Notes under the pieces: model-generated
Seen by the model: the letters and a program-made list of their open reading frames with translations, nothing else
Databases searched by the model: none
Told to the model about the DNA's origin: nothing
In this document: piece by piece, positions 9,444 to 51,033 of the stretch
Layout of the letters: every line of letters starts with the position of its first letter
Position numbering within the stretch: position 1 is the first letter of the stretch
Position numbers and translations under genes: made by a program
Assembly: GCF_900112705.1 (NCBI RefSeq)
Contig: NZ_FOMR01000001.1
Span: 174,945-238,944, forward strand
Source: Lentibacillus persicus
GTDB lineage: Bacteria; Bacillota; Bacilli; Bacillales; Amphibacillaceae
Length of the DNA: 64,000 nucleotides
Reading direction: 5' to 3'

Positions 9444-9498
9444 TGTGAAATCTCTCCTTTTTATGTAATGAAATAAAAACCCTTCACGTTCAGTTCGC

Positions 9499-9511
9499 GG
9501 GGTCAGTCCCC
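9499..9511. repeat. GGGGTCAGTCCCC palindromic motif
   Basis: A 13-base palindrome (one mismatch from GGGGTCAGACCCC) just upstream of the OsmC gene. The exact GGGGTCAGACCCC form recurs at 11282 and 14555. Confidence 0.8.
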
Positions 9512-9610
9512 CTCTCTCTTGATAAGAAGCGGTCTTAATCACTACTAATTTGATCGGAATTGTTATATATACTAACACACCCTTGAGCAGAAGGCAAGGG
9601 TATCTGAAAT

Positions 9611-11206
9611 TTATCCTTTCAAATCGCGCTTTTGATACCCGATAATACCGGTAACCATGGCTGCAATGGCAATGCCCGTTATCCAGCTGATCGGCGTCAC
9701 ATCCATTTCGGCAGCGGGCAGCTGCGGGATATGTTCAAAGACTGAAAGATTGTTAAGCCAGTTGGGAAGATCAAGCAGGCTTCCTATATAGACGGTTACG
9801 AAGCCATAGAATACAAACGCCCAGACAAACGGCGTTAACGTTGGAAGCAACCCAATCAACAACACACCAATCCCTGTGATCAGCCATATTGCCGGCAAGT
9901 AGACAAATGCAGCGGAAAAGATGGTTTGCAATGTCAACGGATCCGCCATGACACCTAAACTTGCAGCCCATAGACCTAAAGCAACGAGCGCCTGCATGAT
10001 GTAACTAACTGCAATGGCCAGGATAAGATAACTGCTTAGCAGGTGCGTGCGTGAGATAGCACGGCTGTATATATTTTCGGTCCGGTGTTTCGTTTCTTCG
10101 CCTTTAACGTGCATCACGGCCATAATGGACGGCACCGTACTGATCAACGCCATAATCGCCATCAAAAGCGAAATAAATTGATCGGTCAAGTTCCCGCCCG
10201 GGGTGTCTTTAAGCATTGATTCAATAAACGCGACATCCGAAAAATAATTTTCCAAATCACCGAGGATGAATCCAAACGCTGCACTCAGCGAAAAAAGACT
10301 GATTCCCCAGATCAACAGATTTGTTTGCTGCAGCCGTAAAATCAGGCCAAATGGTTTCAACAGGAAGGGTGAGGCGTGTACGCGTCCGTTTTTTGCCGGA
10401 ATAAAACCAGCGTTAAGGTCACGGATGGATTGTAACCAGAACGCGACTGCGATTAACCCAATGGTAAGTAAAAGAAACAAATAAACCGGCCACCAGTGAT
10501 TGTTAACAAAAACGTTCGTTCTTACAGTCCAACCGAGTGGTGAAATAAGCGAAAGCACATCACTTTTCACGTCGCCAAACGCCCGCAGTAAATAGGCTAT
10601 AATCAGTGTTCCAAATGCGAGGATGCTTGTGCCGCGTGAAGTTTCGGCCACCTGGGCGAAAACGGCTGTAAATCCGGCGAACACCAGACCTGTTCCCGCT
10701 AAAATTGATCCGTATAAAAATGAACTTTCGGCATCCAAGCTGTCAATCCCGAGAGACATCAATCCAGCTCCTGTTATGACAGCTAACATAACGTTTAACG
10801 ACACGATAATAATGCCGGAAGCACATATGTAAGCGAGACGGCCTGCCGGAAGCGACCGAATCATTTCAGTCCGGCCATCTTCTTCGTCCCCGCGAGTCAT
10901 CCGTGTTACGAGTAAAATGTTCATAATAGCTGCTGTGATGGCGGTAAAGAGAAGCATCTCGTTCGCGAACAGTGCACCGATTGCGCTGTATGCATCCTTC
11001 TCATAACCCGGCCCGACCATTGCAATCATCGCAGGATTTTTCATTGTTATGGCAAAAGCCTGTTTCGCCTGCGAGTCCGGGTACATTGATGGATAAGCCG
11101 AAGCAGCAGCGAGTGTCACACCGACAAGACCAGTAAGCCAGACGAAAAATTTAAACCGTTGCTGACGCAACATTAACCTTATTAACAGCCACGTTCCGTT
11201 AAACAT
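9611..11206 (-). CDS. ABC-2 type exporter permease (TnrB3/polyketide-exporter type)
   Basis: 531 residues with about twelve hydrophobic segments arranged as two similar halves, the layout of COG3559 permeases annotated as exporters of polyketide antibiotics. Conserved traits include the N-terminal LIRLMLRQQRFKFFVW, the TRGDEEDGRTEMIRSLPAGR loop after helix 2 and the repeat HVKGEETKHRTENIYSRAISRTHLL loop in the second half. These loops contact an ATPase, which is normally encoded directly upstream but is not found here. It may work with an ATPase elsewhere, or the operon may have been split. Confidence 0.8.
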   Translation of the reverse strand: MFNGTWLLIRLMLRQQRFKFFVWLTGLVGVTLAAASAYPSMYPDSQAKQAFAITMKNPAMIAMVGPGYEKDAYSAIGALFANEMLLFTAITAAIMNILLVTRMTRGDEEDGRTEMIRSLPAGRLAYICASGIIIVSLNVMLAVITGAGLMSLGIDSLDAESSFLYGSILAGTGLVFAGFTAVFAQVAETSRGTSILAFGTLIIAYLLRAFGDVKSDVLSLISPLGWTVRTNVFVNNHWWPVYLFLLLTIGLIAVAFWLQSIRDLNAGFIPAKNGRVHASPFLLKPFGLILRLQQTNLLIWGISLFSLSAAFGFILGDLENYFSDVAFIESMLKDTPGGNLTDQFISLLMAIMALISTVPSIMAVMHVKGEETKHRTENIYSRAISRTHLLSSYLILAIAVSYIMQALVALGLWAASLGVMADPLTLQTIFSAAFVYLPAIWLITGIGVLLIGLLPTLTPFVWAFVFYGFVTVYIGSLLDLPNWLNNLSVFEHIPQLPAAEMDVTPISWITGIAIAAMVTGIIGYQKRDLKG

Positions 11207-37233: not shown

Positions 37234-37809
37234 TTACAGGTTGGCTTTCAAAAAAGATATGACGTGGTCGAATGCCTTTATGACAGCCGGGTTCTCCATA
37301 TTCGCATCAAATGAATGTTCACCATTTGGAATGGTTATGAGTTCGGTCGTGATGCCGGCATTTGACAGTGCTTTCTGCATGTTTACCGATTCCTGATAGG
37401 GAACGTCTTTGTCTGCGTCACCGTGCAGCAATAGGGTCGCCGGAAAATCAGCCTCGATGTTATCCACAGGCGAATACGCGCTAAGTTTTGCCTTGTCGAA
37501 CTTGGCGTCCCAAGATGTTACATAATCGATCCATTTTCCTTGCTGCCGGCAATATAAGTAAATTCCATACCGTCGCTGGATGGGCGCTTCTGAGATTGTT
37601 TTTGCCTGAATTAATTGTTTCGCCAGGTTTTCCGGCACGTTGGTCATCTTTAGAAAATGGGGTGAGGGCTTGGTATACCAATCACCATAGATACTCCCAT
37701 AGCCGTAAAACGATACGATGGCTTTCGGCTTGACAGGCATCGTTCCGGACAGAAGCGCCAGATACCCTCCTGCAGAACTGCCGGTGACGGCGATTTTATC
37801 AGCGTACGA
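37234..37809 (-). pseudogene. Alpha/beta hydrolase, C-terminal part only
   Basis: About 190 residues of an alpha/beta hydrolase of the BD-FAE/Aes kind. The nucleophile elbow GSSAGGYLALLSG lies at the very start, then LLLHGDADKDVPY (Asp) and PNGEHSF (catalytic His). Everything before the elbow, including the oxyanion HGGG segment, is missing. The coding text stops at the same base where the allantoate amidohydrolase fragment begins in the other direction, so both genes were cut by one rearrangement. The few residues upstream in frame (MPYCPS) are read from the neighbour antisense strand. Confidence 0.8.
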
Positions 37810-38770
37810 TGGGCAATATGGCATTATCGCCGGTTTCCTGGCCCTGCGCTATTTGAAAGAAAAATATGGTGCGCCGCTGAGGAACCTGGAAGTCGTTTCA
37901 ATGGCTGAAGAAGAAGGAAGCCGTTTCCCTTACTCGTACTGGGGATCGAATAATATTGTCGGACAAGCGAAAGCAGAAGATGTTCAAGGCATCAAAGATT
38001 TCGAAGGGACATCGTTTGACGATGCGATCCAACAGGCCGGCTTCGGTTATAAAAAAGATCCGGAAGCGATTCGCTCTGACTTGAAATCTTTTGTGGAAAT
38101 TCATGTTGAGCAAGGGAACGTTCTGGAGAAAGAAAATATACCGGTCGGAATTGTGCAGCATATTGTGGGGCAGCGCCGATACACGATTACTGTAAATGGT
38201 GAAGCGAACCATGCAGGCACCACCCCGATGGGATACCGGGCCGATGCCATGAATGCCGCTTCCCGCATGACGTGTGCGATTAACGATATGGCCGTTGCTG
38301 AAGGGGATCCGTTAGTGGCAACAGTCGGGTCCATGTACCTTGAACCGAATACGGTCAATGTTGTACCGGGCAAAGCGACGTTCACAATCGATATCAGACA
38401 TACCGAAAAAGACGCCTTAATGGATTTCACAGCAGCTGTGGAAGCTAAATTACAGGAAATCGCAGAACAAATCGGTGTTGACGTGGCGATTGACCTATGG
38501 ATGGATGCCGATCCTGTACCGATGGATCAGGACATCGTCAAGGTTATGCAAAAGCAGTGTGATGAAAATGATGTGCACTATAAGCTGATGCACAGCGGTG
38601 CCGGGCACGATGCCCAGGTAATCGCACCCGTCATTCCGACAGCCATGCTTTTTGTCCCAAGCCATAAAGGAATCAGTCATAATCCGAAAGAGTACACGAA
38701 CCCCGAACATTTGGCGGAGGGTGTACAAGCGTTAATTCATACGTTATATGAATTAGGCTATGCCGAATAG
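37806..38770 (+). pseudogene. allC: Allantoate amidohydrolase, N-terminally truncated
   Basis: About 320 residues of an M20-type AllC. It begins at YDGQYGIIAGFLALRYL, so the ~85-90 residues before it are gone, including the first zinc-ligand His of the GSHxDT motif. The remainder is complete: SMAEEEGSRFPYSYWGS, EIHVEQGNVLE, GEANHAGTTPMGYRADA and the C-terminal MHSGAGHDAQVIAP. The reading frame stays open upstream into hydrolase antisense sequence, but that text is not AllC. An active enzyme is unlikely. The three following genes suggest a former allantoin/ureide pathway. Confidence 0.85.
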
Positions 38771-38815
38771 AAACGGCGAGCGTTAATCAAAAACTAATCG
38801 TTTGGAGTGAAAATC

Positions 38816-40354
38816 GTGCTATATACTGTGATTAAGAAAAACTTGTATCAGGACTCTGTCAGTCTGATGCTGTTAACCAATCACTTGTCTGCGGTAGATG
38901 GTGTCACTCAGGTGCAAGTTATGATGGGCACACCGGCTAACAAAGACATTTTCAAAAACTCCGGTTTGTATACCGAAGAACTGGAAGATGCAAACCCGAG
39001 TGATCTGTGCATCGTGGTTGATACCGAGGACGAAAGTGTTGTCGAAAATGTGGTGAACGAAACCGATTCATATTTGAACAGTCAAGCTGAAGCGTCTCAG
39101 GAAAGCACCATTAAAGTCGTCAGAACGTGGGAAATGGCTGAAAACAAATTGTCCAATGCGGATGTGGCGTTAATTTCGATTGCCGGTGAGCATGCAACGG
39201 CAGAAGCCAATAAAGCACTTGATCGCGGCCTGAACGTCTTTATGTTCAGTGACAACGTTCCGGTGGAAGATGAATTGCAGCTAAAAACACGCGCGCAGGA
39301 AGAAGGTCTGATCGTGATGGGACCGGACTGCGGCACCGGCATTTTAGATGGTGTGCCAATGGCATTCGCGAATGTGGTTGAAAAAGGAAACATCGGGATT
39401 GTCGGGGCATCCGGAACCGGCATTCAGGAAGTCTCATCGATTATCGGCAGAAACGGCAGCGGCGTATCACAGGCTATCGGTACCGGCGGCCGGGACTTGT
39501 CATCAGAAATCGGGGCGATCACAACGATTCGCGGTTTGAAATTGCTCGATCAGGATCCAGAAACAGATGTTATTACGTATATTTCAAAGCCACCCGCACC
39601 CGAAGTACGTGAAAAAGTGGTAGATGTTTTTAAAACATTGTCAAAACCGGTTGTTGCTATCTTTATGGGTGATAAGCCGCGTGAGGCACATGATAATGTT
39701 CACTATACATGGACGCTGGAAGACACGGCGCATAAAGCATTGGAACTGGCCAGTGCCAACAAAACGGCCGGCTACAATTTCGCTGGAGATGAAGACCTGC
39801 AGACTATCAAACAAAACAGCAAACAGCGCTATATCAAAGGCTATTTCTGCGGCGGTACATTAGCGAGCGAAGCAGCTATGATTGTTGAAGATGCGCTTGA
39901 GCTTGATGCCTCCCATGAACATCCTGAAGGCATGATGCTCCAGTATGAAGGTCATGAAGTCATTGACCTTGGTGATGATGCCTATACACAGGGACGCGCA
40001 CATCCGATGATTGATCCGACCTTGCGCGTTGAAAAAGTGGAAGAAGCCGCAGCAGACGATGAAACAGCGGTTATATTGCTGGATAACGTTATCGGTTATG
40101 GAGCACATGAAGATATGGCGGGTGTATTTGCACCGGTTGTTGAAAAGGCAAAAGCACAAGCTGCCAGTGAAGGTAAAGCATTCGCAGCCATCGCTTCAGT
40201 CACCGGTACAGCAGAAGATCCGCAAGTATTTCAGGATCAAGTGGATAAACTGGAAGCTGCCGGTGTCATTGTGACCGACATGAAAGTGATTGGCCACACA
40301 TCCGGTGCAGATACGGTGACAGGCATTTTGCTCGGCATCAAGGCAGGCACATGA
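38816..40354 (+). CDS. fdrA: FdrA-like protein (acyl-CoA synthetase superfamily; oxamate carbamoyltransferase subunit type)
   Basis: 512 residues with succinyl-CoA-synthetase-like CoA-binding folds: VMGPDCGTGILDGVPMAFAN, GNIGIVGASGTGIQEVSSIIGRNGSGVSQAIGTGGRDLS, and a ligase-like half with ILLDNVIGYGAHEDMAG and GHTSGADTV. FdrA in enterobacteria works with YlbE and YlbF in the carbamoyl transfer that ends anaerobic allantoin use; here neither partner nor a carbamate kinase follows. GTG 38816 is chosen (LYTVIKKNLYQDS is the usual beginning) with TTTGGAG upstream. It is 45 bases after the allC remnant. Confidence 0.85.
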   Translation: MLYTVIKKNLYQDSVSLMLLTNHLSAVDGVTQVQVMMGTPANKDIFKNSGLYTEELEDANPSDLCIVVDTEDESVVENVVNETDSYLNSQAEASQESTIKVVRTWEMAENKLSNADVALISIAGEHATAEANKALDRGLNVFMFSDNVPVEDELQLKTRAQEEGLIVMGPDCGTGILDGVPMAFANVVEKGNIGIVGASGTGIQEVSSIIGRNGSGVSQAIGTGGRDLSSEIGAITTIRGLKLLDQDPETDVITYISKPPAPEVREKVVDVFKTLSKPVVAIFMGDKPREAHDNVHYTWTLEDTAHKALELASANKTAGYNFAGDEDLQTIKQNSKQRYIKGYFCGGTLASEAAMIVEDALELDASHEHPEGMMLQYEGHEVIDLGDDAYTQGRAHPMIDPTLRVEKVEEAAADDETAVILLDNVIGYGAHEDMAGVFAPVVEKAKAQAASEGKAFAAIASVTGTAEDPQVFQDQVDKLEAAGVIVTDMKVIGHTSGADTVTGILLGIKAGT

Positions 40355-40420
40355 ATGGTGTTATGATACATTTGCAGCCTGCTGAGCACGCACTTATAGC
40401 TGGAGAAGGAGAAGAGTTAA

Positions 40421-41728
40421 ATGAATGAGTTCTGGAAGTCAAGCAGTTGGATATCCGGCTTGCAATGGCTTTTTTTCATTTTCACGAATACAGTCGTTAT
40501 ACCGATCACAGTCGGAGCAGCGTTCGGATTGTCACAGGGGAGTATCGCAAGCATTTTGCAGCTGTCATTTATCGTGACAGGTATTGCCTGTATCGTTCAG
40601 GCACTTTTTGGTCATAAGCGAGCGCTGATGGAAGGCCAGTCCGGTTTATGGTGGGGCGTCATTTTGACACTTACCACTATTGCCGTGGCACAGGATATGC
40701 CTTTAGAAGTGCTGGGCGGCAGCCTTGCCATTGGGGTCATTCTTTCCGGTTTAATGACCATTGCCATCGGATTGACTGGCTTGGGTCCCATTCTTGCCAA
40801 GCTGTTTAAGCCTGCTGTGATGGGTGTGTTTATGTTTTTGTTTGGTGTTAAACTGATTGGCATATTTTTAAAAGGAATGCTTGGCATCCCTTTTGGAAAT
40901 GAAGCACAATCAGCAACGATTGATTTATCGGTATCGCTTTTATCGATTATTATAGCGATTATTGTCATTGTTATCAGTATTAAAGCGCCGCCCGTTATTC
41001 GCCGTTACGCACTGTTGATTGGCATTGTCATTGGCTGGATTGCTTTCAACCTGACATTCGGCGGACAGCAAACCGTTGATCAATCAGAATCATCAGGCTT
41101 TACTTTGTTCCCGCTTGGTGAACCGACGTGGAATACCGGCGTGATTATAACCGCAATACTCGCCGGCCTGCTTAACACCGCGAATACATTCGGCGCCTTA
41201 AAAGGAACGGATGATATGTATAACGCTGAGACGACAAATGGTCAGTATCGTGCATCGTTTACGATCACGGGGATCTTTACAAGCATTTCAGGTGTGCTCG
41301 GTCTTGTTCCGTATGCACCATACGTTTCATCCATTGGCTTTTTGAGCCAGACAGGTATTATTAAACGTGTGCCATTCATCATCGGCGGCCTGATGTTTTT
41401 TGTCATGGGTGTTATCCCGCCGGTCGGACAATTCTTCTCGATGTTGCCGTTAAGTATCGGCAGCGCTGTTTTGTTTGTATCGTATTTACAGTTACTGAAC
41501 TCGTCATGGAATTTCTTCTCGGGCGTGACATTTACGTCTTTAAATGTCTACCGGGCAGCCATTCCGTTGTTCGTGGGCATTATCATTATGACACTGCCGC
41601 CATCTTATTTTGAGACTATTCCCGGCACTGTCCGCCCGCTTTTAAGCAGTGGCTTGCTTGTCGGCATCATACTGGCGCTCTTTCTGGAAAATACGTTCAA
41701 ATGGGACCGGGATACTGAGAAAAGCTGA
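40421..41728 (+). CDS. NCS2 family uracil/xanthine permease
   Basis: 435 residues with about fourteen hydrophobic segments. FTNTVVIPITVGAAFGLSQ opens the first core repeat. MEGQSGLWWGVIL precedes the TM3 region, and AILAGLLNTANTFGALKG is the TM8 signature with the substrate-binding polar residues. GLVPYAPYVSSIGFLSQTG follows. It imports a purine or uracil by cation symport. Placement after allC and fdrA suggests xanthine or urate. AAGGAGAAGAG precedes the ATG. Confidence 0.88.
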   Translation: MNEFWKSSSWISGLQWLFFIFTNTVVIPITVGAAFGLSQGSIASILQLSFIVTGIACIVQALFGHKRALMEGQSGLWWGVILTLTTIAVAQDMPLEVLGGSLAIGVILSGLMTIAIGLTGLGPILAKLFKPAVMGVFMFLFGVKLIGIFLKGMLGIPFGNEAQSATIDLSVSLLSIIIAIIVIVISIKAPPVIRRYALLIGIVIGWIAFNLTFGGQQTVDQSESSGFTLFPLGEPTWNTGVIITAILAGLLNTANTFGALKGTDDMYNAETTNGQYRASFTITGIFTSISGVLGLVPYAPYVSSIGFLSQTGIIKRVPFIIGGLMFFVMGVIPPVGQFFSMLPLSIGSAVLFVSYLQLLNSSWNFFSGVTFTSLNVYRAAIPLFVGIIIMTLPPSYFETIPGTVRPLLSSGLLVGIILALFLENTFKWDRDTEKS

Positions 41729-44231: not shown

Positions 44232-44260
44232 TTGACAGAAGCGATCAATTACTTTAGTAT
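44232..44260 (+). promoter_or_regulatory. Promoter of the tandem S-box operon
   Basis: TTGACA and TAGTAT are separated by 17 bases, upstream of the first SAM riboswitch. No second good promoter is seen between the two riboswitches. Confidence 0.8.
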
Positions 44261-44286
44261 AAATACAATTAATTTTATAAGAATAC

Positions 44287-44448
44287 TTTCTTATCCAGAG
44301 AGGCGGAGGGGTATGGCCCGTTGAAGCCTCGGCAACAGACTCTGATAGCGGAATACTGTGCCAATTCCATCATGCGTAAGCCTGAAAGATAAGAAAGAGT
44401 GAATGGTGTCTATCAAAAACTCTTTTCTTTTTCAGGAAAAGAGTTTTT
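44287..44448 (+). ncRNA. SAM-I riboswitch, first of two, with terminator
   Basis: CTTATCCAGAGAGGCGGAGGG starts the aptamer, with the S-box core GAAGCCTCGGCAACAG, GTGCCAATTCC and the closing strand GATAAGA at 44388-44394. A terminator AAAAACTCTTTTC...GAAAAGAGTTTTT at 44415-44448 follows, and the 3' side of P1 (AAGAAAGAGT) can pair with it as antiterminator. SAM binding should stop transcription. Confidence 0.93.
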
Positions 44449-44492
44449 GTGTTTATACAAGATTTAGCAATGAATAATTGAATAATCTAAAA

Positions 44493-44668
44493 GCTTCTTA
44501 TCCAGAGAGAGGGAGGGACTGACCCTGTGAACTCTCGGCAACCAGCCAGTGCTAAAATGCACATCCCGGCACGGTGCCAATTTCAGAGGTTTATTAATGA
44601 TCCGAAGATAAGAAGGCTGTAGCAAACGTGTTTTGTGAACCCTTCTCTTATTTGGAGAAGGGTTTTTA
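44493..44668 (+). ncRNA. SAM-I riboswitch, second of two, with terminator
   Basis: CTTCTTATCCAGAGAGAGGGAGGG, then GAACTCTCGGCAACCAGCC, GGTGCCAATTTC and the closing strand GATAAGAAG at 44606-44614. Its own terminator, CCTTCTC...GAGAAGG plus GTTTTT, ends at 44668. It is a complete aptamer and expression platform, distinct in sequence from the first, 45 bases after the first terminator. Confidence 0.93.
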
Positions 44669-44761
44669 ACGTTGAAAGGAGGATTTGGAAACGGGTTGTT
44701 AATACTGGATACGGGTGCGAGAAAAAGCAGAGGTTTAAAAATTTAAGAGGAGGCGGGTACG

Positions 44762-45931
44762 ATGAAAACTGTTTTATTGGATGGAATTAGAACACCTTTT
44801 GGCAAGTGGAAAGGAGCGCTTTCCAAGTTATCAGCTGTCGATTTGGGTGCAAGCGCAGTGACAGCATTATTACAGCGTTGTCCCGAAGTCAGAAAAGCAG
44901 ACGGAGCCATCCTTGCTCAAGTCATCCAGGCCGGGACAGGGCAAAATCCCGCAAGGCAAGTTGCTTATCACGCTGGAATAGACCCGAGCACACCTGCGAT
45001 TACGCTAAACAATGTATGTTTGGGAGGACTTGCCACGATTGCAGATGCTTCAAGGCGGGTCCAATTGAATGAAGGTAATTTATTTCTTGTTGGCGGATTT
45101 GACTCAATGACGAATGCCCCGCATACCGCAAATGTCCGGATGCAAAGCGGGGTTGGGGATACACAATTGAAGGATACATTGCAAAATGACGGGCTATGGT
45201 GCGCGTTAACGGATCAATCAATGGGCGTGCTCACTGACCACTATAACGCTATTTATGACATATCACGCAAAGAGCAGGACGAATATGCAGCACGATCCCA
45301 GCAACGGGCAGCTGATGCTCAGGCTGGCGGCAGACTATCAGATGAAATAACTGCTATAACCGATTTTTTAGAATCAGACGAAGGCATTCGTGTAAATACA
45401 ACAGTTGATAAGCTGAGCAATCTTTCGCCCGCTTTTTCTTCTGAGGGGACGATCACAGCGGGGAATGCCTCGCAAATGACTGATGGCGCAAGCGTCGGAA
45501 TTGTGACGTCGGAAGAACAGGCACAGAACTTAAACCAAACACCCCTGGCAGCGGTCATTGACTGGCAGGAAACGGCAGGTCCTGATGCCAGTTTGCAAAC
45601 AAAACCGGCCAAGGCGATCAACAGTTTACTGGAAAGACAGCGTTTGTCTGTTGATGATATCGATTTGTTTGAAATCAACGAAGCTTTTTCCAGTGTTGTG
45701 ATTGCCAGTTGCCGCGAGTTGGGTATTGGCTACGATCGTGTCAATGTCAACGGTGGAGCAATTGCAATTGGTCATCCATTAGGCGGCACCGGATTCCGGC
45801 TTGTGTTAACACTTGCCCATGAATTGAAGCGACGCGGTGGCGGAAAAGGCATCGCCGCTTTATGCGGTGGTGGCGGCCAGGGTTTCGCTATTTTAATAGA
45901 AGTACCGGCAACGAAAGGAGAATCAGTATGA
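44762..45931 (+). CDS. Thiolase (acetyl-CoA acetyltransferase family)
   Basis: 389 residues. The nucleophilic Cys is in LNNVCLGGLATI near residue 85, where most thiolases read CxSGL. The other active-site elements are NEAFSSV, GGAIAIGHPLGGTGFR (His) and the second Cys in LCGGGGQGFA. It would cleave or form a beta-ketoacyl-CoA. It heads an operon behind two SAM riboswitches; AGAGGAGGCGGG precedes the ATG and the stop overlaps the next start as ATGA. The altered CLGG loop may change acyl specificity. Confidence 0.92.
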   Translation: MKTVLLDGIRTPFGKWKGALSKLSAVDLGASAVTALLQRCPEVRKADGAILAQVIQAGTGQNPARQVAYHAGIDPSTPAITLNNVCLGGLATIADASRRVQLNEGNLFLVGGFDSMTNAPHTANVRMQSGVGDTQLKDTLQNDGLWCALTDQSMGVLTDHYNAIYDISRKEQDEYAARSQQRAADAQAGGRLSDEITAITDFLESDEGIRVNTTVDKLSNLSPAFSSEGTITAGNASQMTDGASVGIVTSEEQAQNLNQTPLAAVIDWQETAGPDASLQTKPAKAINSLLERQRLSVDDIDLFEINEAFSSVVIASCRELGIGYDRVNVNGGAIAIGHPLGGTGFRLVLTLAHELKRRGGGKGIAALCGGGGQGFAILIEVPATKGESV

Positions 45932-47871
45932 CAACACAACTAACACAGCAGCGTTCCAGGGTTCTTTGGGAGCCGGAACGGAAAGATATCGAACGGTCAC
46001 ATATTAATAAGTTTGCAGCATTTGCCAATCAGCCTCTTTTTCCTTATGAGCGGCTGCATCACTGGTCCGTTGCTCATTTAGATGAATTTTGGTCACACGT
46101 GTGGGATTACGCCGGGATTATTGGCAAAAAAGGCGAGCGCATCTACATACCATCGGACGCGATGCCCGATGTCCAGTGGTTTCCTGAGGCCGAATTGAAT
46201 TTCGCTGAAAATTTATTAAGAGGTGCTGATGAGCGGGTCGTTGCCTATGAAGCCGATGAAGCGGGATTTAAACGTTCAATTCAGTTGAAAGAACTGAAAC
46301 AGCTTGTCGCCCAGGCACAGGCAGGCCTGAAACAATTAGGTGTTGAAAAAGGTGACCGGGTTGCCGGGGTAACCATTAATAACATTCAAGGTCTCGCTGC
46401 ATTAATTGCAACGGTTTCACTTGGTGCGGTATGGACGTCTTGTTCACCCGACTTTGGTGCCAAAGGCATGATTGACCGTATTGGACAAGCCCGTCCGAAA
46501 GTGCTGATTACGGTGCTTTCCTATCAATACAAACAAAAGCCGTTTAATATTACAGACAAAATCAAAGAAACAAGTGATGCGATCAGCAGTCTAACCGCTG
46601 TCGTCACACTGAACGGAAAGCTTGAGTCGGATAAGCTTGATACGCATACGTGGGAATCGTTATGTGATAAGCAGGCGAACGTACCTGAGTATACCCGAGT
46701 TCCGTTCCAACATCCGCTGTACATTTTATATACGTCCGGGACGACCGGTTTGCCAAAAGCTATTGTTCATTCGGTCGGCGGGACTTTACTTCAACATGTC
46801 AAAGAGCACCAGTTGCATTGTGATGTGCACAAAAACGATGTTCTTTTTTGGTATACCAATACTGCCTGGATGATGTATCCGTGGCTTGTGACGGGGCTGG
46901 CGAGTGAAGCGGCAATTTTGTTGTATGATGGCTCGCCCATACGAACAGACTGTATCACACACCTTTGGCAGATTGCCGACCAGATAGGTGTCACGCATTT
47001 TGGAACAAGCCCGAAATACCTGGATACACTGATGAAAAACAATGTGGAACTGCAGCACGAGTACCCGCTTAAAAAGCTTAAGAGCATTTTGTCCTGCGGG
47101 GCGCCATTAAGCGCTGAGCAATATGATTGGGTGTATCAAACAATTAAACAAGACATTGTCCTTGCTTCAATTTCCGGCGGCACTGAAATCATTGGCTGTT
47201 TCGTAATGGGCACGCCGGTTCACCCTGTTCGGAGAGGTGAAATTACGTGCAAAGCGCTGGGAATGGCTGTTGATGTTCTTGATGAAAGGGGAGCATCGGT
47301 TTATGCCGAAAAAGGTGATCTTGTTTGTACCCAGCCAGCACCGAGCATGCCCATTACGTTTTACGGAAAAGACGGCGATGAACGTTATCGGAAAACGTAC
47401 TTTTCAAAGTGGCCAGGGATTTGGACGCACGGTGACTTTGTGGAACAGACAGTTGATGACACGTTTATTATTTATGGGCGGTCAGATACGACGTTAAATC
47501 CCGGCGGTGTTCGAATAGGGACAGCGGAAATTTATAACGTCGTCGAGCAGTTTGCACACGTGAAGGATTCGATTGTCTTTGGGCTGCCTGTGGATAATGA
47601 CGAAGATATCGTGCTATGTCTTGTGGCTGATCAACAAGATAAGCTGTTAATCAAAGAGATTCGCCGGCAAATTCGGGCGCATGCATCGCCACGACACGTA
47701 CCAAAACGGATTTATTTTGTCGACGACATCCCGTATACGATTAATGGAAAAAAGGTGGAAGCTGCTGCGAAAAAGGAAGCGCTGGGAAACGAAGTGAAAA
47801 ATAAAGCATCGCTAAGTAACCCAAATAGTTTAGCGGCTTTTACCAGATTAATAGAAAGGACGTATGACTAA
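45928..47871 (+). CDS. Acetoacetyl-CoA synthetase-like acyl-CoA ligase
   Basis: 647 residues, the AacS length. ANL-family motifs are ILYTSGTTGLPKAIVHSVGG (A3), SISGGTEIIGCFVMGTP, GDFVEQTVDDTFIIYGRSDTTLNPGGVRIGTAEIYNVVE (A8 hinge) and the catalytic Lys in YTINGKKVE (A10). The AacS-specific N-terminal domain (PERKDIERSHINKFAAF, WSVAHLDEFW) is complete. It activates acetoacetate or a related beta-keto or branched acid with ATP and CoA, supplying the two thiolase-fold proteins. ATG 45928 overlaps the thiolase stop. Confidence 0.9.
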   Translation: MTTQLTQQRSRVLWEPERKDIERSHINKFAAFANQPLFPYERLHHWSVAHLDEFWSHVWDYAGIIGKKGERIYIPSDAMPDVQWFPEAELNFAENLLRGADERVVAYEADEAGFKRSIQLKELKQLVAQAQAGLKQLGVEKGDRVAGVTINNIQGLAALIATVSLGAVWTSCSPDFGAKGMIDRIGQARPKVLITVLSYQYKQKPFNITDKIKETSDAISSLTAVVTLNGKLESDKLDTHTWESLCDKQANVPEYTRVPFQHPLYILYTSGTTGLPKAIVHSVGGTLLQHVKEHQLHCDVHKNDVLFWYTNTAWMMYPWLVTGLASEAAILLYDGSPIRTDCITHLWQIADQIGVTHFGTSPKYLDTLMKNNVELQHEYPLKKLKSILSCGAPLSAEQYDWVYQTIKQDIVLASISGGTEIIGCFVMGTPVHPVRRGEITCKALGMAVDVLDERGASVYAEKGDLVCTQPAPSMPITFYGKDGDERYRKTYFSKWPGIWTHGDFVEQTVDDTFIIYGRSDTTLNPGGVRIGTAEIYNVVEQFAHVKDSIVFGLPVDNDEDIVLCLVADQQDKLLIKEIRRQIRAHASPRHVPKRIYFVDDIPYTINGKKVEAAAKKEALGNEVKNKASLSNPNSLAAFTRLIERTYD

Positions 47872-49031
47872 TGTCGCACAAACCTCACGGAGCAATTATT
47901 GGCATCGGAGAACTGAAACCGGAACGCTATTCGCAAGGGAAGACAACGCTGAGTTTAATCGCGGATTCAGTGCGGGAGGCAATTAGCGATGCGGGTATTT
48001 CCAAAGATGTGATTGACGGATTGCTTGTTGGTCCACAGGTTGGCGAGACGCCTCAGCACGTTCCGGCAACTGTATCGGAATATTTAGGCATCAATCCGAC
48101 AATGTCAAATACGGTCGACCTTGGTGGAGCAACGGGACCGGGAATGATTTGGCGGGCAGCCGCTGCCATTAAAATGGAAATGTGTGAAACCGTCGTATGC
48201 GTATTAGCAAACAAAAATGAAAAAGGTGAAACATTGCGTTCACCAAACCGCAATCCAATCCGGGAATTCGATGTACCATTCGGTGCTTTAGGTGCCAATA
48301 CGTCTTATGCATTATTGAAGCGGCAGCACATGGAAAAGCACGGCTCGTCACAAGAACAATTCGCCAAAATTGCTTATTGGTCAAGAAAAAATGCCCAGTT
48401 CAATCCGAACGCAATATTTTACGGGAAGTCATTGGAACTGGATGACATTCTGACATCACCATTGATTGCTGATCCGCTTCATCTATTGGAAATCGTGATG
48501 CCGGTTGCTGGTGGGGCGGCAGTAATTGTTACGTCTGAAGACCGTGCGGGACAAGGGAAGCACAAACCCGTCTATCTGAAAGGAGCAGGCGAAAAAATCA
48601 CCCATCGTGCAGTAAGCCAGGCACCGGACATTGATGATTTGCCATTTCAATATTCGATCCCGTCTGCGCTTAAGCAGGCGGAAATTGCTATCCATGATGT
48701 TGATTTATTGTCGCTTTATGACTGTTATACGAGCGTTGTTGCCACACAATTGGAAAGCACCGGTCTTTGCGGGCCGGGTGAATTCGGCCGTTTTATTGAC
48801 AATCACAGCTTTGGTCATGATGGCGATTATCCGCTGAACACGCACGGCGGTCAGCTGGGATTTGGGCAGGCCGATTTAGCCGGTGGCATGTCACATGTGA
48901 TTGAAGCTGTCCATCAATTGCGCGGTAATGCCGGAGAACGTCAAATACCAAGTGCCCGGCATGCACTTGTTACGGGTAATGGGGCAACTTTAAGCGAAAC
49001 GACAGCACTTGTATTAGGAGGCGTATCATGA
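47871..49031 (+). CDS. Thiolase-fold lipid-transfer/aldolase-type protein
   Basis: 386 residues of a thiolase-like protein of the SCP-x/Ltp type. IIGIGELKPERYSQGKTTLSLIADSVREAISDAGI starts the fold. The position of the nucleophilic Cys reads VDLGGATGPGMI, without Cys, so it is not a standard thiolase. LYDCYTSVV and THGGQLGFGQADLAGGMSHVIEA keep the other conserved places. Such proteins pair with DUF35 partners, which is exactly the next gene, and some of these pairs are acyl-CoA retro-aldolases. It overlaps both neighbours by 1-4 bases. Confidence 0.85.
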   Translation: MSHKPHGAIIGIGELKPERYSQGKTTLSLIADSVREAISDAGISKDVIDGLLVGPQVGETPQHVPATVSEYLGINPTMSNTVDLGGATGPGMIWRAAAAIKMEMCETVVCVLANKNEKGETLRSPNRNPIREFDVPFGALGANTSYALLKRQHMEKHGSSQEQFAKIAYWSRKNAQFNPNAIFYGKSLELDDILTSPLIADPLHLLEIVMPVAGGAAVIVTSEDRAGQGKHKPVYLKGAGEKITHRAVSQAPDIDDLPFQYSIPSALKQAEIAIHDVDLLSLYDCYTSVVATQLESTGLCGPGEFGRFIDNHSFGHDGDYPLNTHGGQLGFGQADLAGGMSHVIEAVHQLRGNAGERQIPSARHALVTGNGATLSETTALVLGGVS

Positions 49032-49447
49032 GTATTTCCTTACCGAAACCGCTCAGGACATCAATAAGTAAGCCATTTTGGGACAACATTGCTGAAGGGC
49101 GGTTTTCACTCCAGTTTTGTGATGATTGCAGCCGGGCGATCTTCTATCCGAGGGCGCATTGTCCGTTCTGTTTTAGTAATCAATTGACCTGGAAAGAAGC
49201 ATCTGGTCAGGGCAAGTTGCAAACATGGAGTATCATTTACCGGACAGATCATCCTGCCTGGCAGGAGAAAACCCCGTATGTCGTTGGTGTCGTGGAGCTG
49301 ACAGAGGGGCCTTCAATGTTAACACATTTGTTGATAGAGCCAAGCGAGGTCTTTTATCAAATGGATGTTTCGGTCTGCTTTATAACCATTGAAGACGAGG
49401 TACTGCCTTTTTTCAAGGCAAAAGGAGATGACACCCCATGGTTCTGA
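49028..49447 (+). CDS. DUF35 Zn-ribbon/OB-fold acyl-CoA-associated protein
   Basis: 139 residues. A rubredoxin-like zinc ribbon with two CxxC pairs (FCDDCSRAIFYPRAHCPFC, residues ~30-49) is followed by an OB fold (WKEASGQGKLQTWSIIYR, TPYVVGVVELTEGPSMLTHLL). This partner forms complexes with thiolase-fold proteins and shapes their acyl-CoA site; the preceding gene is its obvious mate, overlapping by four bases. Confidence 0.92.
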   Translation: MSISLPKPLRTSISKPFWDNIAEGRFSLQFCDDCSRAIFYPRAHCPFCFSNQLTWKEASGQGKLQTWSIIYRTDHPAWQEKTPYVVGVVELTEGPSMLTHLLIEPSEVFYQMDVSVCFITIEDEVLPFFKAKGDDTPWF

Positions 49448-49533
49448 CTTACTTTCTTTTGGTCGTTGCATGCTGGATAATCGGTTTTGTTTTATGGAAA
49501 AAAATTTATGCCAGCAGAAAGGAGAAGCCTTAA
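49438..49533 (+). CDS. 31-residue membrane peptide coupled to the symporter
   Basis: AAAGGAG precedes ATG 49438, which overlaps the DUF35 gene end. The product is one helix (about residues 3-21) and a basic tail (KKIYASRKEKP). It stops three bases before the symporter start, and its last codons carry the symporter ribosome site. Small one-helix partners (DUF485, DUF3311 types) accompany some SSS transporters; this is shorter and I do not recognise it. Confidence 0.6.
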   Translation: MVLTYFLLVVACWIIGFVLWKKIYASRKEKP

Positions 49534-49536
49534 AGT

Positions 49537-51033
49537 ATGCTAACTAACTCAAGTGTGGTGTTATGGACGGTTGTTCTGCTATTAGTTATTTATTTTGCTT
49601 TTGTTACGTGGATTGGCAAGCGGGGAAGTGCGCACAGTCACTCAATGAATGGCTTTGCGACAGCCCGGGGAAAGGTGAGTCCGGTGCTTGTTGGAGCGAG
49701 TTTCGCTACTTCCTACGCCAGTGCGAATCTGTTCATTGGTGTACCAGGGCTTGCTTATGAATATGGAACTTCAGTCCTGTGGTACACACTTGGTTGCTTC
49801 GGCGTTTCCTGGATTGGCTTATTACTGTTTGCCAAAGCTTTTTGGCGTTACGGCAAAAAACTCGGCCGTGTATCGACATTGCCTGAATGGCTGGGGAGGC
49901 GTTACAATTCAAAAACGTTACAAGTCCTTGTGACGGTATTGATTCTATTTAATGTATATTATATTGTCGGTCAAAATGTAGGGCTTGCCACAATCTTTGA
50001 AACGGTCATCGGTATTCCGTACGAATGGGGGATTGTAATTGGTGTGACGATTACGATTCTTTATATTGGACTTGGCGGCGCTTTCGCTCAAATGGTTACG
50101 GATGGCCTTCAAGGAATTTTAATGGCAGTTACATCCGTTTTAATTATGGTTTCATTGTTTTGGACAATCGGGGGCGGATTTAATGTCTTCGGCGTTTTGA
50201 CCACGCAATTAGAAGCGATTGACCCGGGTTTAACCGGCGCCGTAGGTACTGATGGCCCATATAATAGTGTGCTTGCGATTATGGCTGTTCAGTTTATGTT
50301 ATTCAGTTTTGTATTAATGCCTCACTTATTAAACAAAGTTTTATCAATTGAAACGGAAGAAGAGCTTGCGCCGTTTACGATGTCTGCTGGAATTATTTTG
50401 TGTATCATTTCAATATTAATGGTGCTTGGTGGACTTGCAGCACGTGTGCTCTTCCCGGCATTGGAAAGTGCTGATTCCGCGATACCGGTGTACGTTATTG
50501 AAGCCTTTCCCGGTGTGATTGCAGCGATAATGATTGTCGGAATTATTTCAGCCATCTTATCAAGCACAGACAGTTTGTACCTCGGAGTTACAACCAGTAT
50601 TGGAAATGATTTTTATCGGGTAGTGGCACCCCTTTTTATGAAAAACATATCAGATGCCGAACTGGACCAAAAATCTGTGAAAGTAGCGAAAGGTGCCTTG
50701 ATTGTTGTTGGGCTGGTGTCACTCTATTTTTCATTAGAGCGCCCGGAATCATTGTCGATTTTAATTCAATTTAGCTTTTCAGCGATTATCTCCGGAATCA
50801 TTGCCCCGATTACGCTGGGTTATTTCTGGAAATATGCCAACAATTACGGCGCCATCGCTTCATTAATGACAGGGACAACCCTTTATGTCGTGTTCACCTC
50901 GTTTAATATAGTTGAGAATATTTATTTGGCAATGTTTTTCAGCTCGCTCGCCGGGTTTGCTATTATGGGAGCTATTAGTGCCCTTACATCGAAAGGGAGC
51001 GATCAAGATCTCCTGTTAAGAAAATCAGGTTAA
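49537..51033 (+). CDS. Sodium:solute symporter (SSS family), PanF/monocarboxylate-like
   Basis: 498 residues with thirteen predicted helices. SSS features are NGFATARGKVSPVLVGASFATSYASANLFIGVPGLAY, YIGLGGAFAQMVTDGLQGILMAVTS and IIGIISAILSSTDSLYLGVTTSIGNDFY with the Na2-site Ser/Thr. Compared with the SirTM-linked symporter it looks closer to PanF or monocarboxylate carriers. As the last gene of the S-box operon it probably imports the acid that the ligase activates. Confidence 0.9.
   Translation: MLTNSSVVLWTVVLLLVIYFAFVTWIGKRGSAHSHSMNGFATARGKVSPVLVGASFATSYASANLFIGVPGLAYEYGTSVLWYTLGCFGVSWIGLLLFAKAFWRYGKKLGRVSTLPEWLGRRYNSKTLQVLVTVLILFNVYYIVGQNVGLATIFETVIGIPYEWGIVIGVTITILYIGLGGAFAQMVTDGLQGILMAVTSVLIMVSLFWTIGGGFNVFGVLTTQLEAIDPGLTGAVGTDGPYNSVLAIMAVQFMLFSFVLMPHLLNKVLSIETEEELAPFTMSAGIILCIISILMVLGGLAARVLFPALESADSAIPVYVIEAFPGVIAAIMIVGIISAILSSTDSLYLGVTTSIGNDFYRVVAPLFMKNISDAELDQKSVKVAKGALIVVGLVSLYFSLERPESLSILIQFSFSAIISGIIAPITLGYFWKYANNYGAIASLMTGTTLYVVFTSFNIVENIYLAMFFSSLAGFAIMGAISALTSKGSDQDLLLRKSG

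Follow-up and report, generated by a model that had tools for sequence, protein, structure and literature searches.

Two SAM-I riboswitches in series precede a conserved operon for the predicted uptake, CoA activation and cleavage of a carboxylic acid in Lentibacillus persicus

The window, by which we mean the whole 64,000-nucleotide stretch of the Lentibacillus persicus genome analysed here (contig NZ_FOMR01000001.1, positions 174,945 to 238,944 of the forward strand), contains an operon of six genes behind two S-adenosylmethionine (SAM) riboswitches of the SAM-I or S-box class. The genes encode a thiolase (ThioA), an AMP-forming CoA ligase resembling acetoacetyl-CoA synthetase (AACS), a second protein of the thiolase fold (ThlB), a DUF35 protein, a small membrane peptide and a symporter (Table 1). 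We suggest that the two switches govern the import, activation and cleavage of an acid that feeds sulfur or a methyl group to methionine, and give this proposal a probability of about one half. Judged from the sequence analyses, control of the operon by SAM-I is close to certain.

The covariance-model search which had been proposed along with the original prediction gave only two Rfam matches above the gathering score in the whole window (cmscan), both to RF00162 (SAM-I, gathering score 44.4 bits), both on the plus strand and both over the full length of the model (1–108). Thus, two complete and non-identical S-box aptamers are present, as had been claimed, and since the copies share only 63% identity, the second aptamer is no fresh copy. 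A terminator hairpin lies 3′ of each aptamer, also in agreement with the original prediction, and the respective stretches fold at −17.4 (first) and −18.5 kcal/mol (second). By folding alone, both platforms could work as terminator/antiterminator switches using the 3′ strand of P1, with predicted antiterminator duplexes of −12.9 (first) and −11.0 kcal/mol (second), both weaker than the terminators. A consensus scan missed terminator 2 and lists only terminator 1 (1 found versus 0.7 expected from shuffled sequences). The single TTGACA/TAGTAT promoter that had been proposed does exist as a site, but such sites are equally common in shuffled sequences (3 found versus 2.6), so that the promoter by itself is not beyond chance. 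For the aptamers chance is excluded because of their E-values and because SAM-I leaders are present in 37 of 38 orthologous operons.

Tandem SAM-I riboswitches with two complete aptamers and their own terminators in one leader are already known; the accessible text of a 2022 survey counts 164 doubles and one triple, and tandems of the "pseudo-cooperative" type are expected there to respond more steeply (PMC9481103), as the original prediction supposed for this leader. The leader described here has the same layout, with two independent aptamers, each followed by its own terminator, in front of one gene set. One transcript would run through two successive SAM-I attenuators. With ample SAM, each bound aptamer would hold P1, its terminator would be freed and transcription would stop; expression of the operon would thus require a low SAM level at both checkpoints. 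The known targets of SAM–SAM tandems given in the available part of PMC12452182 are metNIQ, ssuABC-type carriers, hom1 and amhX, and no operon of CoA ligase, aldolase and thiolase is among them. Likewise, a literature search limited to open-access PMC text, with passages of PMC3766115, PMC2258182 and PMC7857596 among it, turned up no description of a comparable operon.

As orthologous we regard 38 operons from five families of one order whose ThlB is at least 69% identical to that of the window: the window's operon itself, 19 others of its family, nine from the rest of the order, four and three from two other families, and two from Halobacillus. Orthologues of ThlB occur in 20 of 146 genomes of the window's family, with more in an order-wide search of 299 genomes, in 6/17 and 4/34 genomes of two other families, and in two Halobacillus genomes (L054, L056). 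The nearest named relatives by ThlB are Lentibacillus species (92–93% identical). For the range outside the order 398 genomes of the class were sampled at an E-value of 1e-110; the four matches all belong to the window's family.

The original prediction had made itself dependent on orthologous operons, which might consistently have lacked S-box leaders. In fact a SAM-I match above the gathering score stands upstream of 37 of the 38 operons, 26 times as a tandem and 11 times as a single aptamer (for G261 and G288 the leaders used are those of L053 and L055, and the leader of G144 lies on a separate contig, L152). In the remaining operon, G145, the region 5′ of ThioA (L151, 6740–6952) holds a decayed S-box: the core blocks and the terminator align with those of relatives, the 3′ strand of P1 is deleted and there is no SAM-I match at E-values up to 1. 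By this alignment the leader of G145 is a natural riboswitch in the course of loss. No Rfam match was found in short stretches (90,513 bases in total) around 20 control loci, 10 of canonical AACS (picked from 22) and 10 of distant ThlB (picked from 12). Two paralogous operons (L103 of G428 and L105 of G387), excluded from the 38, have no S-box either. They encode a ligase, ThlB, DUF35, ThioA, a MaoC hydratase and MFS carriers, which resembles the Shy–Sal hydratase–aldolase pair, and by this analogy their substrate may be an unsaturated acid.

The ligase, ThlB and DUF35 genes were each found by tblastn in all 38 operons, and so was a carrier, which belongs to the SSF family in 28 operons and is an MHS-type MFS protein in 10. 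In G144 the genes are split over two contigs, and the matches to ThlB, symporter and ligase are fragmented. In comparison, ThioA is present in 35 operons (tblastn) and absent from three of the Halobacillus group (L053, 3635–4058; L054, 3631–4058; L096, 4666–5009), where the ligase gene stands directly behind the tandem S-boxes. Carrier, ligase and ThlB–DUF35 therefore make up the constant core of the operon, and the aldolase step belongs to it. In a further operon (L104 of G397, 9475–11203) two transposase-like open reading frames, by eye of the IS3 type, separate the ligase gene from its SAM-I leader.

The two aptamer copies have been kept apart. The mean identity is 73% among first copies and 77% among second copies, versus 69% between the two copies within one leader, and each of the 52 aptamers in tandem leaders has its closest counterpart from a different leader at the same position. 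This indicates that the pair predates the divergence of close relatives and has been kept as two distinct switches. Of the single leaders, L034 is closer to the first copies and L033, L043, L104 and L150 are closer to the second, while several are not clearly closer to either, a mixture to be expected if either copy can be lost. The aptamer tree (112 columns; three labels require 10 changes in all) is poorly resolved, and we therefore rely on the nearest-neighbour positions only. Behind the aptamers of the orthologous leaders, 62 of 63 terminators pass a loose criterion (a fold under −7 and four T, without shuffle control); the second copy of L055 fails and L104 is weak.

ThlB, the second protein of the thiolase fold, has no thiolase nucleophilic cysteine and shows VDLGGATG at that place. 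By sequence and by fold (structure model with a mean pLDDT of 76.8) its closest PDB entry is the Sal–Shy(DUF35) aldolase 9myr (40% identity, TM 0.89), followed in the fold search by Ltp2–ChsH2. In the accessible text of PMC12329534 catalysis by Sal is assigned to Tyr302 and Cys304 of the YDCY motif, aided by Gln347 and Gln352. The equivalents in ThlB (Y283, C285, Q328 and Q333) are invariant in 37 of 37 aligned sequences, namely 35 from the operons and two paralogues. ThlB is thus most likely a Sal-type retro-aldolase, and the dyad, the glutamines and the likeness to 9myr lead to the prediction that it cleaves a beta-hydroxyacyl-CoA to yield an aldehyde and an acyl-CoA. With Sal–Shy and the Ltp2–ChsH2 steroid side-chain aldolases the pair shares the thiolase fold without nucleophilic cysteine and the DUF35 partner, and with Sal the YDCY motif. 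In contrast to Shy, the DUF35 protein is separate and small, has no MaoC domain and carries a ChsH2-like Cys4 zinc ribbon (C-x2-C-x10-C-x2-C) instead of Cys3His1; and unlike in the context of the steroid side-chain aldolases, no steroid genes were noticed around the operon.

The ligase matches TIGR01217, acetoacetyl-CoA synthetase, over its whole length and above the cut-off, and the nearest structure is an acetoacetate–CoA ligase (4wd1). Nevertheless, by sequence the operon ligases are a subfamily of their own within AACS: 28 of the 38 share a mean identity of 68%, compared with 39% to 21 canonical AACS of the same order, and 27 diagnostic columns separate the two sets. On the substrate side the canonical motifs GWMMWN, TGSP, GGTD and NR are replaced by AWMMYP, CGAP, GGTE and NP in the operon ligases. 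Some of the changed positions presumably line the acyl pocket, by homology to acetyl-CoA synthetase (Acs). We considered acetoacetate as the substrate; it is disfavoured by these altered motifs and, since the window's genome holds a canonical AACS elsewhere (C22), is unlikely to be the main one.

In ThioA the catalytic cysteine of classical thiolases is present (NNVCLGG aligns with NKVCASG), and from its sequence it looks like a working thiolase. The best NCBIfam equivalog of the symporter is panF (167 bits, below the cut-off of 328), and that of the MHS-type carriers which replace it in some operons is the shikimate transporter, also below cut-off. The 31-residue peptide has no NCBIfam match; a similar peptide, judged by eye, is encoded between the DUF35 and symporter genes in all 12 operons checked with the window's gene order and 5′ of the symporter in 3 of 3 with the other order (the copy in L042 has 26 residues, and that in L034 starts with TTG). 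Neighbouring genes of the set overlap or stand at most 3 bases apart, which bears out the tight packing noted originally. The further claim that the genes encode carboxylate uptake, CoA activation and C–C bond cleavage fits the gene families, with the refinement that the second "thiolase" is likely a retro-aldolase of the Sal type.

Table 1. Leader elements and genes of the operon (positions in the window)
Feature	Position	Strand	Basis
Promoter-like site, sigma-70-type, TTGACA-17-TAGTAT	44232..44260	+	motif scan, 10/12 matches
SAM-I riboswitch aptamer 1	44288..44395	+	RF00162, 83.1 bits, E 4.2e-18
Intrinsic terminator 1, 16-pair stem and T tail	44414..44449	+	consensus scan and folding
SAM-I riboswitch aptamer 2	44495..44614	+	RF00162, 80.7 bits, E 2e-17
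Stretch containing intrinsic terminator 2	44633..44672	+	folding, −18.5 kcal/mol
ThioA, acetyl-CoA C-acyltransferase-type thiolase, 389 aa	44762..45931	+	TIGR01930, 402 bits (cut-off 240.55)
AACS-like AMP-forming CoA ligase, divergent subfamily, 647 aa	45928..47871	+	TIGR01217, 708 bits (cut-off 520.9)
ThlB, thiolase-fold Sal-like aldolase (predicted), 386 aa, YDCY at 283-286	47871..49031	+	sequence, fold, motif
DUF35 protein (zf-ChsH2 and OB_ChsH2_C), ThlB partner, 139 aa	49028..49447	+	domain matches
Single-helix membrane peptide, 31 aa, probable symporter accessory	49438..49533	+	recurrence in relatives
SSF-family sodium/solute symporter, 498 aa	49537..51033	+	PF00474, 174 bits (cut-off 22.8)

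Upstream of the operon (window 37718–41728) lies a cluster which by eye resembles one for ureide or purine catabolism, with an amidohydrolase, an FdrA-like protein and a xanthine/uracil-type permease.

The aptamers and terminators, the gene order and its conservation, the protein families and the catalytic residues, which can be read directly from the DNA and the alignments, form the basis of the pathway we propose. The reactions and their order are inferred from the chemistry of the families. The symporter with its small peptide would import a small carboxylate, and the AACS-like ligase would make its CoA thioester. The complex of ThlB and DUF35 would cut a beta-hydroxyacyl-CoA in a retro-aldol reaction into R-CHO and acetyl-CoA, and ThioA might act as an accessory by thiolysis of the beta-oxo form. 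R would most likely bear a sulfur or methyl group destined for methionine, and this fate would account for the control by SAM. It is plausible that sulfur or methyl groups are salvaged from a beta-hydroxy or beta-oxo acid; what R is and how it would reach methionine is conjecture. Candidate acids of the form R-CH(OH)-CH2-COO include carnitine, gonyol and the demethylated form of gonyol, 3-hydroxy-5-methylthiopentanoate. One survey detected gonyol in every haptophyte and dinoflagellate that it covered; marine bacteria use the compound, and some of them release methanethiol, while the accessible text of the survey names no genes for this use (PMC7221440). In a more far-reaching reading, the operon would be the first known set of genes by which sulfur is salvaged from beta-hydroxy acids of the omega-methylthio or dimethylsulfonio type, for example gonyol, via CoA activation and Sal-type cleavage, under two serial SAM-I switches and with MetY and methionine as the outlet; this is a speculation to which we attach little probability.

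The link to methionine can be followed beyond the leader. At least nine SAM-I aptamers in eight leaders were found in the window's genome (150 of 223 first-look candidates scored), and only the operon's leader is a tandem. The other targets are, by eye, a metN-type ABC ATPase, a MetY with an extra C-terminal domain, a cystathionine-lyase-type enzyme, an SSF symporter, a MetE-like methyltransferase, metK and a BHMT-like methyltransferase. The BHMT-like homocysteine methyltransferase (L009) and this SSF-like symporter (L004) are located on contig C18 of the genome, at 17.6 kb and 26.9 kb. In six operons of one family (f19) the order is tandem S-boxes, MetY, ligase, ThlB, DUF35, carrier and ThioA; the MetY of L100 (TIGR01326, 665 bits) is fused to a CoA-binding domain. 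In L100 and L145, the two of the six that were scanned, the operon strand has no U-tailed terminator between the MetY and ligase genes, and the one reported for L145 lies on the other strand. Judged from this arrangement, MetY within the f19 operons, together with the S-boxes, is the strongest argument for a role of the pathway in methionine supply.

In the MTA (methylthioadenosine)–isoprenoid shunt MetY reportedly uses methanethiol. The operon has in common with this shunt of Rhodospirillum, as described in the accessible part of PMC4958253, that an O-acetylhomoserine sulfhydrylase is tied to organic-sulfur salvage; unlike the shunt, it has no enzymes for MTA or sugar phosphates, its chemistry would be that of CoA thioesters, and MetY belongs to the operon in one family only.

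Several observations speak against sulfur or methyl salvage for methionine or weaken parts of it. The operon holds no gene for the release of sulfur or methyl groups, and the fetched stretches of 31 of the 38 operons contain no MetY. In f19 there is a gap of 122 bases with a hairpin between MetY and the ligase gene, and since S-boxes often precede metY, two transcripts with an S-box each may have been fused here. In G145 MetY and a gene of the CMD family lie upstream, beyond the decayed S-box. We considered this MetY as a second independent gain (two changes were counted on the tree, into which L104 and L150 entered with AACS only and from which G144 was left out) and rejected it, as the decayed S-box and its terminator separate MetY and the CMD gene from ThioA; thus MetY next to this operon is weak evidence. 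In ThlB, the oxyanion-hole Gln161 of Sal corresponds to Ala142 in 37 of 37 sequences (the residue was matched by hand). A BHMT-like gene, sought with the genome's own BHMT-like protein in the 146 genomes of the family (38 matches), is found in 4 of 20 operon genomes versus 34 of 126 others (p 0.59), and on this ground we dropped BHMT and betaine as partners of the operon in this family. MetE is more common with the operon (14/20 versus 40/126 genomes of the family, p 0.002, uncorrected for relatedness), and the idea that the operon compensates for missing MetE or MetH found no support within the family. For the salvage function suggested in the original prediction the evidence is mixed: it gained from MetY inside the six f19 operons and got no support from the co-occurrence with BHMT or from a depletion of MetE.

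These observations have to be weighed together with other explanations of the operon. Ordinary use of a carbon source, in a ketone-body-type pathway of AACS and thiolase that captured an S-box leader by chance, is unlikely. AACS and a thiolase are indeed the textbook route for acetoacetate, the ligase passes the AACS equivalog cut-off and the products would be acetyl-CoA units. Nevertheless, the S-box is kept in nearly all of the operons and across five families as compared to none of the 10 canonical AACS loci, the same genome has a canonical AACS, the substrate-side motifs differ, and three operons dispense with the thiolase. Rather unlikely, too, is that the operon supplies a methyl donor, with carnitine or a similar betaine as substrate and carnitinyl-CoA cleaved to acetyl-CoA and betaine aldehyde, from which glycine betaine would arise and act both as an osmolyte and as a donor of methyl groups. 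In shape carnitine, being a beta-hydroxy acid, would fit, the nearest named hosts are halophiles, and the window's genome has the S-box-controlled BHMT-like gene and a second symporter behind an S-box; on the other side, the BHMT-like gene is not enriched in operon genomes, the symporter is nearest to PanF, and the MFS carrier that replaces it is nearer to the shikimate transporter than to ProP, a weak hint at an anion as all these matches are below cut-off.

Improbable in our view is a supply of one-carbon units or building blocks, where a 3-hydroxy acid would give an aldehyde (formaldehyde in the case of 3-hydroxypropionate) or acetyl-CoA, for 5-methyltetrahydrofolate or O-acetylhomoserine when methionine is short. 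The higher frequency of the folate-dependent MetE in operon genomes of the family would fit, and so would MetY, the consumer of O-acetylhomoserine, in the operon of one family. Against it stand the motif changes of the ligase, two Trp to Tyr among them, which suggest larger rather than smaller room for the substrate, and the MetE comparison is uncorrected for relatedness. Very improbable is that the operon replaces a missing methionine synthase by releasing methanethiol, from which MetY would make methionine directly so that MetE and MetH become dispensable. Neither MetH, searched in operon genomes only, nor MetE is above cut-off in 14 of 36 operon genomes, the window's included, and this group includes five of the six genomes whose operon contains MetY. 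But within the family MetE is more frequent with the operon than without it, and MetE is absent from all 12 sampled genomes of the window's genus (g1), four with and eight without the operon. In addition, other methionine synthases may serve, and in the window's genome methionine may be synthesized by the short MetE-like and the BHMT-like enzymes (L007, L009).

Riboswitches are reliable pointers to the metabolism of genes without a known role. A SAM-I leader kept across five families suggests that this predicted CoA-dependent acid-cleavage pathway belongs to the supply of methionine and SAM. Even if the substrate should be an ordinary one, the labels AACS, "acetyl-CoA acetyltransferase" and "lipid-transfer protein" on such genes may still be wrong. 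The salvage of sulfur or methyl groups for methionine, as we propose it, would bring the DUF35 aldolase fold, familiar from steroid breakdown, into sulfur or methyl metabolism, and among the proteins of this well-delimited set there could be some that are still missing from the known pathways of environmental organosulfur or methyl compounds.

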